A stretch of 7,775 bases of DNA from an uncultured Planctomycetaceae bacterium (lineage in GTDB: Bacteria > Planctomycetota > Planctomycetia > Planctomycetales > Planctomycetaceae). The position numbers and the translations under genes were made by a program. Positions 2,020 to 7,775 of the stretch are shown one piece after another. Position 1 is the first letter of the stretch. Every line of letters begins with the position of its first letter. The notes below the pieces were generated by a model. It was not told where the DNA came from, made no database searches, and was given only the letters and a program-made list of their open reading frames with translations. The stretch covers positions 1-7,775 of the forward strand of contig CAIJTL010001658.1 in NCBI GenBank assembly GCA_903823545.1, given 5' to 3'.

Positions 2020-2208
2020 TCAAGCGGTCTTCGCTGGCAGAACGTTGGGTTTCATCGGCGGGCGCGGTGCTCGACGAACGACCGGCCGATCACCAAGAAG
2101 GTCGCGCTGTCGCGCGTCTTCCCCAATGGCATCGACGTCGTAATTGAATTTGGCGGCGATCTCATCACGGATTTTGCGGATTTCCTCGACAATCGGGTCA
2201 GTATGCAT
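2020..2208 (-). CDS. Small antitoxin-like protein partnered with PIN toxin
   Basis: A 62-residue protein beginning MHTDPIVEEIRKIRDEIAAK. This N-terminal pattern (TDPIVEE-(I/V)-R-x-(I/V)-RDE-x-AAK-x-x-Y-D-x-DAI) is one I recognise from a widespread family of small proteins in cyanobacteria and planctomycetes that are often encoded beside PIN-domain genes. They are presumed antitoxins. The first half should be helical; the tail is basic and proline-rich (RRAPRPPMKP) and looks longer than usual. The start codon lies inside the 3' end of the PIN frame (11-nt overlap), and GGAGA 6 nt upstream is also inside that frame, so translation is probably coupled. The toxin-first order is the reverse of classical vapBC. 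The antitoxin role is inferred from context; no DNA-binding fold is evident. Confidence 0.72.
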   Translation of the reverse strand: MHTDPIVEEIRKIRDEIAAKFNYDVDAIGEDARQRDLLGDRPVVRRAPRPPMKPNVLPAKTA

Positions 2209-2683
2209 CGTTGATCTCCAAGAGTTCTTGCGGAGTGCAAATCACGGGAGGTTCGCAGTTCATTTCCCGACAGCAGAATTCGATTCTCGATCTCAGCGCC
2301 GGGTTGGCAATGTGCTTGCAATTCCAAGTCACTAGGTACTCTACACCATGAATCGCTGCCACTGAAATGTGGTACGCATCGACTGCCCCTTTCGGCGGCA
2401 GCGGCACCCCTTTCAGCAGTGCTTTCGCGAGGGTGTCGGCAGTTCGGCTGACCTCCAACAGCGGAACGCCTTGCAGAAAGACGAGTCGTTCTTGAGCGGC
2501 AACTGGATCACCTCGCGAGCATTCATCGACCACTTAACGTGAAATGAACAGGTCGTATCGTTCCCGATGATTGTCCCACCAGTCGCGCGTGATTTGTTGA
2601 TTGGCCGCAATCCGCAGCACACCACTCAGACGCATGGCCAAGCAGCCGATCACGCTCGTTTCGAGGTAAATGGAAGGCTTCAT
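2198..2683 (-). pseudogene. PIN-domain (VapC-like) toxin gene interrupted by an in-frame TAA
   Basis: Translation from ATG 2683 (GGAGGA 7 nt upstream) begins MKPSIYLETSVIG and runs 49 codons to DLFISR. It then meets TAA at 2536-2534 and continues in the same frame, from VVDECSRGDP to TGA at 2198. Reading through the stop gives a 161-residue protein with the full layout of the PIN subfamily marked by YLETSV at the N terminus, DAYHISVAAIHG in the middle, TWNCKHIAN near the C terminus and a CTPQELLE tail. PIN domains are Mg2+-dependent ribonucleases. The presumed acidic residues are E8, D53/E54 and D102, with N121 at the fourth position. The stop separates E8 from the rest, so neither fragment should be an active nuclease. 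A GTG at 2533 directly after the stop could start a 111-residue remnant, but that is more likely chance. A sequencing error or stop readthrough are alternatives. The frame is otherwise undamaged, suggesting the change is recent. Confidence 0.85.
2215..2219 (-). promoter_or_regulatory. Ribosome binding site of the antitoxin-like gene, inside the PIN frame
   Basis: GGAGA on the minus strand lies 6 nt before the ATG at 2208, within the last codons of the PIN reading frame. With the 11-nt overlap it suggests translational coupling. Because the PIN frame is interrupted upstream, ribosomes may now have to initiate here independently. Confidence 0.5.
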
Positions 2684-2723: not shown

Positions 2724-5700
2724 TCAATGACTTGGTCCCAGCAACACAAACGAAGCCCAATAGAACGGGGCCTGCCAGCGTGGATCGTTGCGGACTTTTA
2801 ACTTCGCGGCGTGCAGCGAAGAAGTCACATCGAAACGATCAGAGTTTGCGAGATCTTCGGAAATGAGTTCAAAGAGGCCAGCCACAAGCTCGGCGGTCGA
2901 ATCATCGGAGACTTTCCAATGACTGGCGATGACTCGACGAGAGCCTGCCGCCAAGAACGCTTGAGCCAAGGTAGAACCCGCTTCTAACGGGCGATCGGGA
3001 CCGACGTTGGTTTGACAGGCACTCAACACGGCCAGTTCGCAATCGACGAGCGGCAGTTGCAGGATTTCGTTGTACGACAGGAATCCGTCGTTCCCTTCGT
3101 TCAACGTCGTGTCCATCGGTGGCGTGAGTGCGATCGCTCCGAAGAGATTGCCATATCGCTCATCCACGAGTCCGTGAGCGGCCAAGTGGACAAGGCCGTA
3201 ACCGCGGACACTCTCGACGAATTTCGCTTCCGTCGCGTTCGTAGCCAACAAAGATTTGACCGTCATGTCACGTCGTTCAAAGCATTCGGCCAAACGAGCA
3301 CATTCTCTCGCCGTACCGGGCAACGGCGGCAACGAACCTCGCAAGCCATACATCACGTCGCGCGTGAGTTCTTCCCCGCGATCTGCTGCGGCCACCGCTG
3401 TTTCTGCCGATGAGTCGATCGCTGAATCCGCTGACGAATCAGTACTCTTGGCGACACCAGCTTGCATTCGGTATTGCGGGTTGCCGAGCGTCAGTAAGCG
3501 ACGTCGGCTCTCAGACGATGTCGCAGGACGGTGAATCAGATTGACCAAGATATTTGCCGACGGCGCGTAAGCGATCGGTGGAAACTCATCGAGCACAAAT
3601 CGCGGCGAGTCACTTCCAGTTGTGTCACCCGCGCGAATCAACAACGCCTCAAACGGAAGGTTGTGCAACGCTCCGTCGGGAATGATGACCAACTTTTGCG
3701 GACTTCGTTCACGAATGAGCTTGCGAAGCTGTTCCGGGAACAAAATGTCGGCAACGGCGACCAACGATGTTGTTGCAACCGCAGTACCTTTTGTCGTCTC
3801 GACGGTACCGCCAATGCCGCGCGTTGGGTCGAACTGTTTCTGACGCAGCACCTGGCGATACCACGCGACAATGTCCGCTCCCTTACGTCGAGTCAGCGGC
3901 CCTGCGGTGACTTCCGATTGCTCTTTGTCGGCCTCGATCTTTTCCCCCTTCTCAGTTTCTACCGTTCCGCCAATGCCACGCTGAGTGACTTCCTGCGCGG
4001 CTTGTCTGAGTCGTGGCAGATCGGGAAGCAGCGCCGATTGATTGGACGTCACTTTCAGCGGTACCGCAACAACCGGCTGTGTTTGATCCCCGATGACCAG
4101 CACTGTGCTTTGCTGTGAGCCCAAGTGATAGAACAGGACCAACGTGTCCGGAGCGATGATCTCGCGGCGAATTTGGTCGAGCGTCCAAACGGTTCGCTCC
4201 TGCGTGAGCAGCTTGGAATAGAGCTGACTTGAGTCACGCATCTCATTCCACACTTGCGCGTAATCTGCTTGAGTCTGATGCAGTTCGCGCGTGAGGCTTT
4301 GCCATTCGGGCGATTGATTCGAGTGTTCTGGCAGCAGCTTGGCTTGAATGCGCAGACGCTGAAGTTGCAACCGCAACTCTTGCTCGCGAGGCAACAGCCG
4401 TTTGGCCACGTCTTCGGGCAACGTCTTGCGCAAATCAACGCCTGCCAGATTGAGTTGATCCAAGAAGGTTCGATTGCGGCTCTGTTCGGCAGCGACGAAC
4501 GCCGCGTCATAATTCTTGTCTTCGAGTAGCCATTGCACCTGCATGTCGAACGCGGAAGCGAACTGAGCGAGGAACTTCGCGCGTCCTTGTTCCGCTTCGC
4601 CAAACGTTTCGGAACGGAACGCTTCCGGAATCTCAATTGCCTGACGTAGCGCGGCGAGCGCCTCTGCCGTGCGACCAACTTTTCGATAAACGGCAGCCAA
4701 ATTGCAGAGCGTGTTGTACTGGTCTTGAGGAGAGACCTCGGCCTCATCGTGAAGTTGCCGAGCATCTTCAAAGAACTGCTTCGCCTCCACGATGCGATCT
4801 TGCTGATAGGCCAGCAACCCAAGCATGTTGAGCGTGAATGCAACCGAGGCAGTTTGCTGATTGTCGCGTTGAATGCGGAGGGCCTGTTGCCAATGGGACT
4901 CGGCCGTTTCATACGCCTTTCCCAAGCAGGCCACGATGCCGATCTGCGTATGCGCCGACGCGGCAGCGAGATGATCCGCTTGCTGATGCTTTTCACAAAC
5001 GGATAACGCTTTCAATGCCCAGCGATACGACCCGGCATAGTCCCCTTGTCCGCGAGCCATTGTCGCTAGCGCGTTGTAGTGGCCGACCGACGCCATCGTC
5101 TCCCGGCCTACCGACTCTTCCAGCAGCGCCAAAGATTGCTGACACAACTCCGCGGCACGCTCGAACTGTCCCTGTGATTTGTAGGCCATCGCCAGATTCA
5201 GCAGCGTCACACTTTGCAGCCCGTTGGCGCGTGGACCACGTTCGCGACAACGCTCCAAGACCTCTTGATACAACTGAATGGCCCGCTTGAATTGTCCTTG
5301 AACGAGACAAACGCTGGCCAGATTGTTGTAAGAAGTCGCCAGTTCTGGATCGTCTTTCGACAAATGCTCTCGGCGAAGTTGCAGTGCCTCATCAAACGAC
5401 TTCATCGCCAACGCGAACTCACCGACGCCTCGCTCCACCGCTCCGAGATTATTGAGCGCTCGAGCCAACAACTCCGGAGACTTATCAGACTTGCGGTAGG
5501 TTTCCACCACCTCGCGCAAGAGCGGTCGAGCTTTTCCGTAGTTGCCCGACGCGCCGTGCAAGCTGCCGAGCACAGAATTCGACTCCATCACCAACGGATG
5601 CGATGGCCCCAATTCCGTGATCTGCTTCAGCAACAGTTTCTCACCAACAGAGATGGCGTCCGAAGTACGGCCAAGCTGCTGATACAAGTTCCGCAGTTGC

Positions 5701-6779
5701 TTCCAGTCAGAAGCTGACGCCGCCGTGTCAGCGACAACCTGCTGCAAACACTCGGCCGCCATCGTGAGTTCCGCAAGAGCTTTGTTTCGCAGTTGTTGTT
5801 CGCGGTAAGCGTTCGCCAAGAGTTGATGAATCTGCGAAGCACCACGCGGGTTCTCTTGGGGAGAAACGAATTCGAGTCCCTCACGGAAATGTTTTTCGGC
5901 GCGAATAAAATCTTTTCGCAACGAAGCATGAGTCCCCAATTCCAGTAACGCTCGCAGTTGCCTCTGCTTTCCGTCTGGCATTCGCGAGAGCTTTTGTTGC
6001 AACGCGGCCAGCATCTGATCGGCGGCGTCCGTTCGATCGAGAGCCTCTTGGCATTCCACCAAGCGGACGATGACCAAGACCCCCTCGTCGGGGTTCAGGC
6101 TCTTTTCAAATTGCTTGAGAAAGTCGCGTCCCAGCTTTTCCGCTTCACGCCAATGTTCCGCCGCTGACTCCGCGTGATCAGTCAGATGTTCGACGGTTGC
6201 CAACGTGACCAGCACAGGTAACTTTCGCAGGTCTTTGAGCTTCCCATATCGATTCGCCAACAACTCTTCCAGCGTGGCACGTGCTTCCGAAAAGTTGGCC
6301 AACGCGATCTGGCATTCCGCAATCCCGATCGCATTTTGCTGTAAGAACTCTTTGAAGTCGGCGTTCGAAACCGCTTTGAGTTCTTCGCGGTATTCAATCG
6401 CGTATCTCAGCGCATCCGAATGCTGCCCCAATCGCCGATTGGTTTCCGCCAACATCAACAAACAGCGCCGTCGCACTCGCACCTTTTCGTCTGAGGACGG
6501 TCCTTGCGTGACACTCGCCAAGACTTGAGCAAACTTGTCATCCGCCTGTGCCCAAGCGCCTCGTCGAAAAAACTCTTCCGCAGACAACAAGTCCCGCCCA
6601 CGGTCTTGAGCAATCACCAACCCGTTGCCCAAGTGCAACTCAATCACGAAGGCACATAGCAGCCACAGGTGCGTAGCCGTCACGCTCCGCGTGACGTGCT
6701 GGACCCTCCCCAAAGCTCTGATCAACGTCCGGCTCGTCACGCGGAGCGTGACGGCTACGTATAGGCAGTTCGCTCGCAT
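2724..6779 (-). CDS. Exported TPR-CHAT protein, putative caspase-like protease
   Basis: 1351 residues. After a 37-residue leader comes a hydrophobic stretch (about 38-57, LWLLCAFVIELHLGNGLVIA) with a plausible signal peptidase site (VIA|QD), so export is likely. Residues about 65-720 are tandem TPR helices with typical A/G/Y/A positions (e.g. LNNLGAVERGVGEFALAMKS, YNNLASVCLVQGQFKRAI). A charged, probably coiled-coil segment follows (about 782-870), then a CHAT domain (about 1000-1349, preceded by an associated alpha/beta part from about 877). The catalytic dyad is intact: H1202 in HLAAHG and C1255 in VLSACQTN. CHAT is a caspase/gingipain-related cysteine protease fold; TPRs usually bind a partner or regulator. 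Two RGIGGTVET motifs (934-944, 987-997) sit in apparent loops before the core, and an S/D/A-rich linker (1112-1133) precedes the His. The start is uncertain: ATG 6779 lies 6 nt after the DUF4384 gene with no clear Shine-Dalgarno, and an 88-bp palindromic element is read as codons 7-36. GTG at 6683 is an alternative. The substrate is unknown. Confidence 0.92.
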   Translation of the reverse strand: MRANCLYVAVTLRVTSRTLIRALGRVQHVTRSVTATHLWLLCAFVIELHLGNGLVIAQDRGRDLLSAEEFFRRGAWAQADDKFAQVLASVTQGPSSDEKVRVRRRCLLMLAETNRRLGQHSDALRYAIEYREELKAVSNADFKEFLQQNAIGIAECQIALANFSEARATLEELLANRYGKLKDLRKLPVLVTLATVEHLTDHAESAAEHWREAEKLGRDFLKQFEKSLNPDEGVLVIVRLVECQEALDRTDAADQMLAALQQKLSRMPDGKQRQLRALLELGTHASLRKDFIRAEKHFREGLEFVSPQENPRGASQIHQLLANAYREQQLRNKALAELTMAAECLQQVVADTAASASDWKQLRNLYQQLGRTSDAISVGEKLLLKQITELGPSHPLVMESNSVLGSLHGASGNYGKARPLLREVVETYRKSDKSPELLARALNNLGAVERGVGEFALAMKSFDEALQLRREHLSKDDPELATSYNNLASVCLVQGQFKRAIQLYQEVLERCRERGPRANGLQSVTLLNLAMAYKSQGQFERAAELCQQSLALLEESVGRETMASVGHYNALATMARGQGDYAGSYRWALKALSVCEKHQQADHLAAASAHTQIGIVACLGKAYETAESHWQQALRIQRDNQQTASVAFTLNMLGLLAYQQDRIVEAKQFFEDARQLHDEAEVSPQDQYNTLCNLAAVYRKVGRTAEALAALRQAIEIPEAFRSETFGEAEQGRAKFLAQFASAFDMQVQWLLEDKNYDAAFVAAEQSRNRTFLDQLNLAGVDLRKTLPEDVAKRLLPREQELRLQLQRLRIQAKLLPEHSNQSPEWQSLTRELHQTQADYAQVWNEMRDSSQLYSKLLTQERTVWTLDQIRREIIAPDTLVLFYHLGSQQSTVLVIGDQTQPVVAVPLKVTSNQSALLPDLPRLRQAAQEVTQRGIGGTVETEKGEKIEADKEQSEVTAGPLTRRKGADIVAWYRQVLRQKQFDPTRGIGGTVETTKGTAVATTSLVAVADILFPEQLRKLIRERSPQKLVIIPDGALHNLPFEALLIRAGDTTGSDSPRFVLDEFPPIAYAPSANILVNLIHRPATSSESRRRLLTLGNPQYRMQAGVAKSTDSSADSAIDSSAETAVAAADRGEELTRDVMYGLRGSLPPLPGTARECARLAECFERRDMTVKSLLATNATEAKFVESVRGYGLVHLAAHGLVDERYGNLFGAIALTPPMDTTLNEGNDGFLSYNEILQLPLVDCELAVLSACQTNVGPDRPLEAGSTLAQAFLAAGSRRVIASHWKVSDDSTAELVAGLFELISEDLANSDRFDVTSSLHAAKLKVRNDPRWQAPFYWASFVLLGPSH
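3381..3446 (-). other. Ser/Asp/Ala-rich linker inside the CHAT domain
   Basis: This encodes residues 1112-1133 of the TPR-CHAT protein, a low-complexity acidic stretch (pattern DSSADSAIDSSAET) made of imperfect short repeats. It falls between the strand ending GNPQY and the LPPLPGTARE segment that leads to the catalytic His. Many CHAT proteins have a variable loop here, so this is probably a flexible exposed loop. Whether it is a processing linker cannot be told from sequence. Confidence 0.6.
3789..3821 (-). repeat. RGxGGTVETxK motif copy 2 (TPR-CHAT residues 987-997)
   Basis: Encodes RGIGGTVETTK, followed by GTAVATT. It lies between a helix-like segment (VAWYRQVLRQKQ) and the helix leading to the CHAT core (ADILFPEQL), so it is probably an exposed loop. 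Against copy 1, seven codons differ synonymously and one differs in meaning (E to T). Confidence 0.85.
3948..3980 (-). repeat. RGxGGTVETxK motif copy 1 (TPR-CHAT residues 934-944)
   Basis: Encodes RGIGGTVETEK, followed by a charged stretch (GEKIEADKEQ). It follows a helix ending AAQEVTQ and begins 53 residues before copy 2. The charged, gap-like sequence after it looks like an insertion relative to ordinary CHAT proteins. Confidence 0.85.
6672..6759. repeat. Palindromic REP/MITE-like inverted-repeat element within the TPR-CHAT 5' end
   Basis: Two perfect 25-nt inverted arms lie at 6672-6696 and 6735-6759, separated by 38 nt. Each arm is itself a hairpin: CGTCACGC, a 3-nt loop, then GCGTGACG. 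This composite of two outward-related hairpins resembles BIME/REP pairs, and I associate the arm sequence (GTAGCCGTCACGC...) with dispersed repeats in planctomycete genomes. The element has no coding capacity of its own. It is translated in frame as part of the CHAT leader, without a stop. No second copy is seen in the window, so dispersal is recalled rather than shown. Confidence 0.8.
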
Positions 6780-6785
6780 GAGACT

Positions 6786-7775
6786 TCACTCGTGAGGAAA
6801 GACAATTCCGGTATAGCTGTCGAAGATATGACTCAGCCGCTCGGTGAAGTCTTCAATTTCAACAGGCAAGACTTTGTCGGTCTCAACGGTCCCACCGAAA
6901 CCCCGATCGCGGTCCTCTCGCCCAAACGCCATGAGCTGCGGTTTATTTCCCTTAACCACGGAAGGCTTCACACGCAGCGAATCAACGACTTGCAGATCAG
7001 CCTGAGTCAACGGCTTCAACGAGGTTGCGACCAAGACCGTCTCATGTCCTTTGAGTGCGTCCAAAAAATACATCCGCTGCTTCCGGCCTTCGTCCGCGAG
7101 CGGCGGTGCCCAAACCTCTTTCACCGGTTGCTGCTGGTGAAGCCCTTCCGATGTCTCTGGCCACAGCCGAGTGGGAGTCCCCGTCGTGTCGATGAGGTAT
7201 AGATAAACATAACTCAGCCCATTCAACGTCACATGAAATTGCAGCTTGTCCTTCGCACGAAGAGGCATCGATTTCTGACTCAGGACCTCAAATCCCGCTT
7301 CCTGATCCGCTCGTTGCAGATGGGTTTCTAAAACCGGATCAGCCTCGACGGGTTGATTGTTCGGTTTCGTGTTATCACCGATTTTGGAGCCAGTCACGGC
7401 AGCAATCTGTTTCGTTGCAGCGGATGAACTCGGTGAATCGTCACTCTTCGCAACATCCGATTTCACAACACTCGCGGCCGTCGTCAACTGGTGAGTCGAA
7501 GCACTCGATTTCGTGTCTTGATTTGGACTGCGATTCAGCCAAGCGGCAAACAACAGCACCGCGACGAGAGCCACACTAACACCGATCAGTCCGCGATTTG
7601 TTTTGACGCCCACCTGACTGGCTGCTGCTGCATGGTCGCTAGCAACCGGTTTGCTCACCGACTGAGTTGTTCCTTCGTTGAAATCAGCCCGTTTGAATGA
7701 GGGGTCAGGCACCGCAGAATTCAGAATTGGCGGGCGCGAACTTCCATGACCGACAATGTCACCCTCCGCCAATTC
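6786..7775 (-). CDS. Single-pass membrane protein with extracytoplasmic DUF4384-like domain (5' end outside window)
   Basis: The frame is open at the window edge. A TTG at 7772 is possible but the codon before it (GAA) is also open, so the true start is probably upstream. Numbering from 7772: residues 1-60 are polar, 61-79 form one transmembrane helix (GLIGVSVALVAVLLFAAWL) preceded by K57/R60, and 80-150 are a Ser/Thr/Ala-rich linker. Residues about 165-255 resemble DUF4384 (FHVTLNGLSYVYLYLIDTTG, then RLWPE). DUF4384 often accompanies caspase-like or kinase signalling proteins; its molecular role is not established. Charge distribution suggests N-in, C-out, placing the domain on the same side as the exported CHAT protein. 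Residues 290-300 are RGFGGTVETDK, the motif found twice in the neighbour. The stop at 6786 is 6 nt from the CHAT ATG, so the two are surely co-transcribed. A cytoplasmic N-terminal domain (for example kinase or anti-sigma type) may lie beyond the edge, but cannot be seen. Confidence 0.8.
   Translation of the reverse strand, partial: ELAEGDIVGHGSSRPPILNSAVPDPSFKRADFNEGTTQSVSKPVASDHAAAASQVGVKTNRGLIGVSVALVAVLLFAAWLNRSPNQDTKSSASTHQLTTAASVVKSDVAKSDDSPSSSAATKQIAAVTGSKIGDNTKPNNQPVEADPVLETHLQRADQEAGFEVLSQKSMPLRAKDKLQFHVTLNGLSYVYLYLIDTTGTPTRLWPETSEGLHQQQPVKEVWAPPLADEGRKQRMYFLDALKGHETVLVATSLKPLTQADLQVVDSLRVKPSVVKGNKPQLMAFGREDRDRGFGGTVETDKVLPVEIEDFTERLSHIFDSYTGIVFPHE
6873..6905 (-). repeat. RGxGGTVETxK motif copy 3 (in DUF4384-type protein)
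   Basis: Encodes RGFGGTVETDK, preceded by GREDRD and followed by VLPVE, about 28 residues from the C terminus. Against copy 1 nine codons differ synonymously and two differ in meaning (I to F, E to D). It lies C-terminal to the DUF4384-like domain. Confidence 0.85.

Follow-up and report, generated by a model that had tools for sequence, protein, structure and literature searches.

Two adjacent genes, one encoding a TPR-CHAT protein and the other what appears by homology to be the C-terminal part of a kinase-DUF4384 protein, share a short arginine-led peptide, RG(I/F)GGTVETxK, in a 7,775-nucleotide stretch of DNA (hereafter the window; contig CAIJTL010001658.1 of assembly GCA_903823545.1) from an uncultured Planctomycetaceae bacterium. 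The peptide occurs twice in the CHAT protein, in two loops (loops 1 and 2, holding copies 1 and 2), and once in the tail of its partner (copy 3), and it covaries lineage by lineage between the two proteins. On balance, and by a slight preference, we take it to be a lineage-specific recognition site led by a nearly invariant Arg, likely read by the active-site cleft of the CHAT protein, with a cut predicted after that Arg.

Covariation of the two CHAT loops

The loop comparison used 124 rows, namely the best 120 of 908 proteins (one being the window's own) and four added loci, of which at least L042 has the same loops as a listed protein. Most of these CHAT rows carry an Arg-led motif in both loops that diverges between lineages and is alike within each protein, as in the loop pairs RGIGGTVET/RGIGGTVET, RAPVGTVLS/RAPVDVAWA, RGLVYKSAG/RGLVFVTKN and REVVGTDST/REVVGTEQT. 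Covariation was measured on 37 representatives with less than 60% identity, drawn from the 82 of 124 rows whose loops both carry an R site. Over offsets +1 to +10 after the R, each loop 1 matched its own loop 2 with z=10.3, a score reached in none of 20,000 permutations; the strongest single offsets were +2 (z 6.2) and +4 (z 5.8), and +5 and +9 showed no covariation. The matching block begins at the R: the residues that follow it covary, and those that precede it hardly do.

The preliminary description of this DNA had proposed either the R at the start of the motif or the K at its end as the residue before a cut (P1). The R is the better supported of the two, as it starts the matching block and loop 2 begins with R[GASE] in 119 of the 124 rows (loop 1 in 87 of the 89 rows having that loop); the terminal K varies where the R does not, and K was rejected as P1.

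Other CHAT sequences came to light alongside these. The window genome encodes a second TPR-CHAT protein (L048, G000:C966:1-7493), whose loop pair, RGIVGRLSVDKG / RGLSGTVATIKG, differs from that of the window. Elsewhere, a CHAT fragment copy (G004:C6:63691-64365) is spread over two frames with an internal TAA and is 62-72% identical to the window protein. In other phyla, single-loop CHAT proteins read SRGLKRRKA (L069), SRGLVERTR (L072), SRGVAAVTD (L078) and TRGLIKVGG (L082), with no kinase directly upstream.

A matching site in the kinase tail

The window partner has a hydrophobic segment at residues 62-80 followed by a sub-threshold DUF4384 domain (PF14326; 23.4 bits, 26.2 in another run, gathering cut-off 27). 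Among its relatives, L073 (39.3 bits) and L075 (34.0 bits) exceed the cut-off and L054 is unlisted at E ≤ 0.001, and a Ser/Thr kinase domain is present in longer orthologues of the partner and in L054, L073 and L075. The partner, earlier named a DUF4384-type protein, is by homology probably the C-terminal part of a kinase-DUF4384 protein. Copy 3 spans its residues 291-301 counted from the contig edge, or 290-300 from the first TTG.

Fifty-nine loci were tested for a matching partner (33 from a set of 80, 25 from a list of 30, and the window itself, some loci being duplicated). In 24 rows a kinase lies directly upstream on the same strand; likely duplicates among them (L065/L133, L056/L157 and L057/L156) leave 21 distinct rows, and 13 representatives with less than 70% identity entered the pairing permutations. 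A first pairing test, in which partner sites had been picked by their match, was dropped as circular. Of the two tests used, one scanned the whole partner at every R and gave own pairs a score of 29.1 vs 19.2 for other pairs (0 of 50,000 permutations); the other picked the tail site without reference to the CHAT protein and gave z=6.6 after the R, again with 0 of 50,000. The best R-anchored match lay 29-53 residues from the partner's C-terminus in 21 of the 24 rows (not in L057, L138 and L147). Between 20 and 60 residues from the C-terminus, an R[GASE][ILVFMPA] site is present in all 24 kinases, vs 172 of 404 other open reading frames (ORFs) of at least 300 residues from the tested loci; many of these ORFs are unlikely to be real genes.

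The matching is evident by eye in CHAT/kinase pairs such as RAPVGTVLSK/RAPVGVVASR (L056), RGLVYKSAGQ/RGLVYKKAAS (L065, Gemmata) and RGLGSDPVRV/RGLGSNPVFA (L066), and it extends beyond Planctomycetota to Krumholzibacteriota (L075, RGVAGVAELD/RGVSGVAAMP) and Eisenbacteria (L073, RGVSGIADAG/RGVSGITTAR). In L061 the matching kinase follows the CHAT gene (RGQVRRLKTI/RGTVKRLKGA), and in L062 a possible match lies on the other strand (RSLASKTVVS/RGLGGKVVSS). In G035, a Gemmata relative, a kinase-DUF4384 protein with the tail RGVVVKKAGA (L182:4629-6746, + strand) is encoded 2.2 Mb from the CHAT gene (L140), so partners need not be linked. Such lineage-by-lineage covariation strongly supports two earlier proposals, that the CHAT protein and its partner are functionally linked and that selection acts on the peptide.

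Three DUF4384 proteins without CHAT linkage (L183, L184 and L186) have no RG[ILV] tail site. In the Symmachiella type, the GLKR that the CHAT loops have in common with a small and apparently secreted DUF4384 protein was set aside as coincidental, TGLK[RN]xTSL being conserved in that protein family, including L185. The small DUF4384 protein of L185 itself (L185:6677-7495, + strand) carries TTRGIIRAG soon after its hydrophobic N-terminus, equal to loop 2 of the CHAT protein P0060 (SRGIIRAGA); no CHAT gene turned up in the retrieved L185 region, and the protein is perhaps a second substrate type. In G054, a kinase-DUF4384 gene lies directly before a weak CHAT match (L187, E=6.6e-32) whose loops were not located, and this case was counted neither way. 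A phylum-wide profile search at E ≤ 1e-60 matched the own genome only (1 of 392) and a class-wide search with P0042 matched 1 of 397, both counts being lower bounds because the first pass scored 2-4 candidates per genome.

The motif copies at the DNA level

Three copies of one motif in two adjacent proteins, as first described, are indeed present, and across the 7.23 Mb assembly (87.93% complete) a 24-nucleotide degenerate pattern has no further match, its reversed control having none at all. A slightly wider pattern has matches in 3 of 40 genomes, the own genome and two congeners that carry the operon too, and in the congeners these fall at the two CHAT loops only. With the strict pattern, hits scattered without CHAT association were looked for in 40 genomes and not found.

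Copies 1 and 2 have, over 11 codons, 3 identical, 7 synonymous and 1 replaced, exactly the seven silent changes and one replacement reported before; for copies 1 and 3 the corresponding counts are 0, 9 and 2, and for copies 2 and 3 they are 3, 6 and 2. Three of the first nine codons are identical between copies 1 and 2, where codon usage leads one to expect 3.02 +/- 1.41. The peptide thus explains the likeness of the DNA, and recent DNA copying, already thought unlikely, is unneeded.

Comparison with the two congeners, in which the spacing between loops 1 and 2 is the same 159 bp, shows no replacements and 5-7 synonymous changes in the 9 motif codons of the CHAT gene. Replacements number 2-5 per segment in the regions flanking loop 1 and in the 11 codons that follow loop 2, and 1 and 0, against the two congeners, in the 10 codons that precede it. 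This indicates purifying selection on the CHAT copies, which adds to the strong support for selection on the peptide. In the kinase copy, 2 of 9 codons are replaced relative to each congener, which read RGIGGIVET.

These counts bear on the idea that the copies owe their likeness to gene conversion or to duplication of a short piece of DNA and have no function in common. The copies are alike within each genome, as that idea would have it, yet we give it next to no credence: identical codons in the window are at the level that codon usage predicts, the CHAT copies are under purifying selection, and the unlinked, motif-bearing kinase of G035 argues against local conversion.

Predicted structure and active site

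The model of the CHAT protein (predicted local distance difference test, pLDDT, 83.6; predicted template modeling score, pTM, 0.87) places copy 1 at model residues 155-165 (block pLDDT 36-44) and copy 2 at 208-218 (block pLDDT 52), both in low-confidence segments flanked by well-modeled elements. The AlphaFold2 model of the kinase tail is weak overall (pLDDT 62.7, pTM 0.49), so only its confident DUF4384 core and its local low confidence were used; copy 3 lies inside segment 273-306, with pLDDT below 50, ahead of the last helix and strand. Presumably, then, all three motif sites sit in flexible segments.

In a Foldseek search the CHAT model ranked separase first (5fby; E=1.2e-11, template modeling scores 0.37/0.42, 11% identity), with modest scores and Csx29 almost equal. 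Other neighbors were Csx29 of Craspase, DdvA and the Arg-gingipain RgpB (rank 30). A sequence search against the PDB gave six chains at E ≤ 0.001, with no separase among them.

H1202 and C1255 form the putative catalytic dyad of the TPR-CHAT protein, the His being kept in all 173 aligned rows and the Cys in 170. Glu1044 is Glu in 166 of these rows and, from its WE/FE context after the first strand, may be the equivalent of the S1 acid of separase. In a computational model of separase, the P1-Arg has two acidic partners, Glu917 and Asp1082, with Glu917 standing just after the first strand, beside Trp916 and before Pro920 (PMC4626109); we equated nothing in the CHAT sequence with Asp1082.

Plain mutual information connects motif position +4 with residues beside H1202 and C1255; the tests that followed used 147 of the 173 rows. 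In a tree-aware control, +1 co-changes with near-catalytic columns above all 162 background columns, and +3, +6, +8 and +11 are in the top 5%. This control used a strict set of columns within 5 residues of four named residues; in a looser near-active-site set, chosen after the mutual-information result had been seen, +4 reached p=0.007. The co-change lends weak support to a reading of the motif by the cleft.

How the motif may be read

The CHAT protein would be the reader of the motif through its own active-site cleft, with the R as P1 and processing at Arg/X (the slash marking the cut). In cis, cuts in both CHAT loops would bring the protease to maturity or switch it. Cutting in trans would take place in the kinase-DUF4384 tail, nicking the extracytoplasmic domain before its last helix and strand and thereby altering signaling. 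That CHAT and kinase sites are alike would follow the logic of separase, in which autocleavage sites resemble substrate sites. A bolder version, toward which we lean somewhat less than halfway, sees in the motif an evolving password: an Arg-led peptide on the primed side (after the cut), present twice in the protease and once in the outer domain of the kinase and rewritten jointly in each lineage, such that each protease would cut only itself and its own kinase, forming a private, caspase-type channel across the envelope.

Several observations weigh against cleavage by the cleft. Matching before the R is slight, both between loops (offsets -5 to -1, z=1.1; -10 to -1, z=2.5, 155 of 20,000 permutations) and between proteins (z=1.4 and z=1.9 over the same offsets), and to match on the primed side alone is out of the ordinary for proteases of this clan, whose caspases and separases are considered to owe their specificity to P1-P5 (PMC4626109). 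At the active site, Glu1044 is not bound to the motif: it persists in seven rows whose loop 2 lacks the R, and four R[GASE] rows are without it (two Ala, one Val, one Asp). Cross-tabulation shows that the mutual information between motif and cleft is largely one clade split, and in the tree-aware control the control offsets -4 and -7 are also in the top 5% and +2, +4, +5 and +7 are not unusual. In the whole-protein scan, the own partner comes only 4th or lower among those scored against a CHAT protein in 4 of 13 cases (L055, L057, L076 and L136). Moreover, a kinase immediately upstream is missing in 35 of the 59 loci. Some of these are cut by contig edges, which do not explain the Symmachiella type (L064, L152-L154), L071, the Gemmata relatives L137, L140 and L141, or the RG-loop CHAT proteins of other phyla (L069, L072, L074, L078 and L082). 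No convincing partner site was found beside the kinase-less loci inspected, except the unlinked one for L140.

The primed-side matching admits more than one account: the residues read by the CHAT protein may be primed ones, the N-termini newly made by cutting may have a role afterwards, or the peptide may dock uncut. The last of these is the leading rival, unlikely in our view though it deserves serious weight. It holds that the R and the residues after it form a short linear motif that binds as an extended strand in a CHAT pocket, the loops serving as internal pseudo-ligands with which the kinase tail competes. Docking fits a match that runs from the R through some 11 following residues and scarcely touches the preceding ones; covariation that peaks at +2 and +4 and is absent at +5 and +9 is a pattern that an extended strand could give, and the sites, judging from the models, are all likely flexible. 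Docking alone leaves unexplained why the site stands in a protein with conserved putative catalytic residues and a fold like that of Arg proteases.

Alternatively, a third protein, another protease or a receptor, might read the tag in both proteins. A hydrophobic segment is present in 15 of 15 kinase loci, standing between the kinase HRD motif and the RG motif in the 14 with a kinase domain, and a hydrophobic 17-mer occurs within the first 75 residues in 80 of 112 long CHAT homologues, the window CHAT protein likewise having an N-terminal hydrophobic segment. From this placement, both motif-bearing parts are predicted to lie outside the cytoplasmic membrane, where a common reader could reach them. 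We nevertheless hold such a reader to be improbable, as it needs a third coevolving gene, of which none was found, and no third protein in the assembly carries the strict motif.

Returning to cleavage by the CHAT cleft, the pairing offers a substrate and site predicted from sequence, and a residue to mutate, in a big group of bacterial caspase relatives, few of whose targets are known. If the reading is true, caspase-clan proteolysis would regulate bacterial membrane kinases, and a primed-side specificity code, naturally diverged many times, could be readable from sequence alone. Even under docking, the covariation identifies a partner pair and its binding peptide.

Genomic context

The features of the window are collected in Table 1. 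PADLOC matches on the TPR-CHAT protein were two to TPR and a weak one to BovA; the kinase-DUF4384 partner had none. Downstream of the CHAT gene, an ORF of 111 residues (window 2198-2533, - strand) is without a Pfam match at E ≤ 0.001; by eye we take it to be PIN-like. In other loci, long genes precede the kinase. For example, a 1754-residue FG-GAP repeat protein is encoded directly upstream of it in L051 (L051:3-5264, + strand), an ORF of similar length, not profiled, stands upstream in L052, and a long Calx-beta protein is found upstream in L066.

Table 1. Positions of the two genes, the three motif copies and the candidate S1 acid in the window
Feature	Coordinates	Strand	Remarks
Kinase-DUF4384 protein (by homology), C-terminal 329 residues	6786..7775	-	ORF; 5' end lost at contig edge
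TPR-CHAT protein, 1351 residues	2724..6779	-	ATG at 6779; PF12770 over residues 1008-1348 (E=3.4e-51, 174.8 bits, cut-off 24)
Motif copy 1, RGIGGTVETEK	3948..3980	-	CHAT residues 934-944, loop 1
Motif copy 2, RGIGGTVETTK	3789..3821	-	CHAT residues 987-997, loop 2
Motif copy 3, RGFGGTVETDK	6873..6905	-	Kinase-DUF4384 tail; counted from the C-terminus, R is residue 39
Codon of Glu1044 (LPFE)	3648..3650	-	Putative equivalent of the separase S1 acid

Comparison with known systems

The Craspase system likewise joins a TPR-CHAT protease, Csx29, to a partner, Csx30, which is cut in a small flexible loop (PMC10028731). It differs in that its sites (A/S, L/D and M/K) are non-Arg and not conserved between orthologues (PMC11106740), and in that a Craspase chain has His where the window family has Glu1044, in an aligned stretch that scores below significance. 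Inspection by eye of the ORFs on the 7775-base contig, three of which were also run against Pfam, showed no gRAMP/Cas7-11, Csx30 or CRISPR genes, the rest of the genome being unsearched for them.

Gingipain R and clostripain-type proteases are Arg-specific members of clan CD, and RgpB is among the fold matches. Clostripain undergoes linker processing; these proteases are not known to us to have a counterpart of their own site in a partner gene. DdvA, a CHAT-containing transmembrane anti-sigma factor, is matched in its CHAT domain by both sequence and fold, and the title of its structure indicates a role in membrane signaling.

Amyloid signaling pairs of NLR receptors and effectors likewise have a short motif common to both proteins and many motif families. 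Receptor and effector genes are adjacent in these pairs. By analogy, identical motifs in the CHAT protein and the kinase might template each other in parallel register, and the same motif in neighbors, two copies in one of them and like binding like would agree with this. We regard the analogy as highly improbable, because amyloid motifs are self-templating, whereas here the R at the start is nearly invariant, prolines and K/R runs occur in several lineages (RAPVGTV, RGLKRQR) and the sites appear to lie in internal loops, not at ends.

The closest parallel is separase with its substrate SCC1 (clan CD, family C50), the top fold match, which likewise combines a TPR-like region with a caspase-type protease. 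Human separase has several autocleavage sites in a flexible insert, with Arg at P1, that resemble substrate sites and dock as these do (PMC12609080). Separase reads residues before the Arg (ExxR) and has cohesin as its partner, whereas here the matched residues follow the Arg and the partner is a kinase-DUF4384 protein; for such non-primed recognition, no significant matching was found at offsets -5 to -1 of the CHAT/kinase motif. Judged by titles and the beginnings of abstracts in the open literature, a search outside which preprints and most subscription papers fall, no description of a CHAT-DUF4384 kinase pairing was found. Likeness between the self-site of a protease and the site in its partner is known from separase; the motif rewritten by lineage on the primed side, and the kinase as partner, are what the window family would add.

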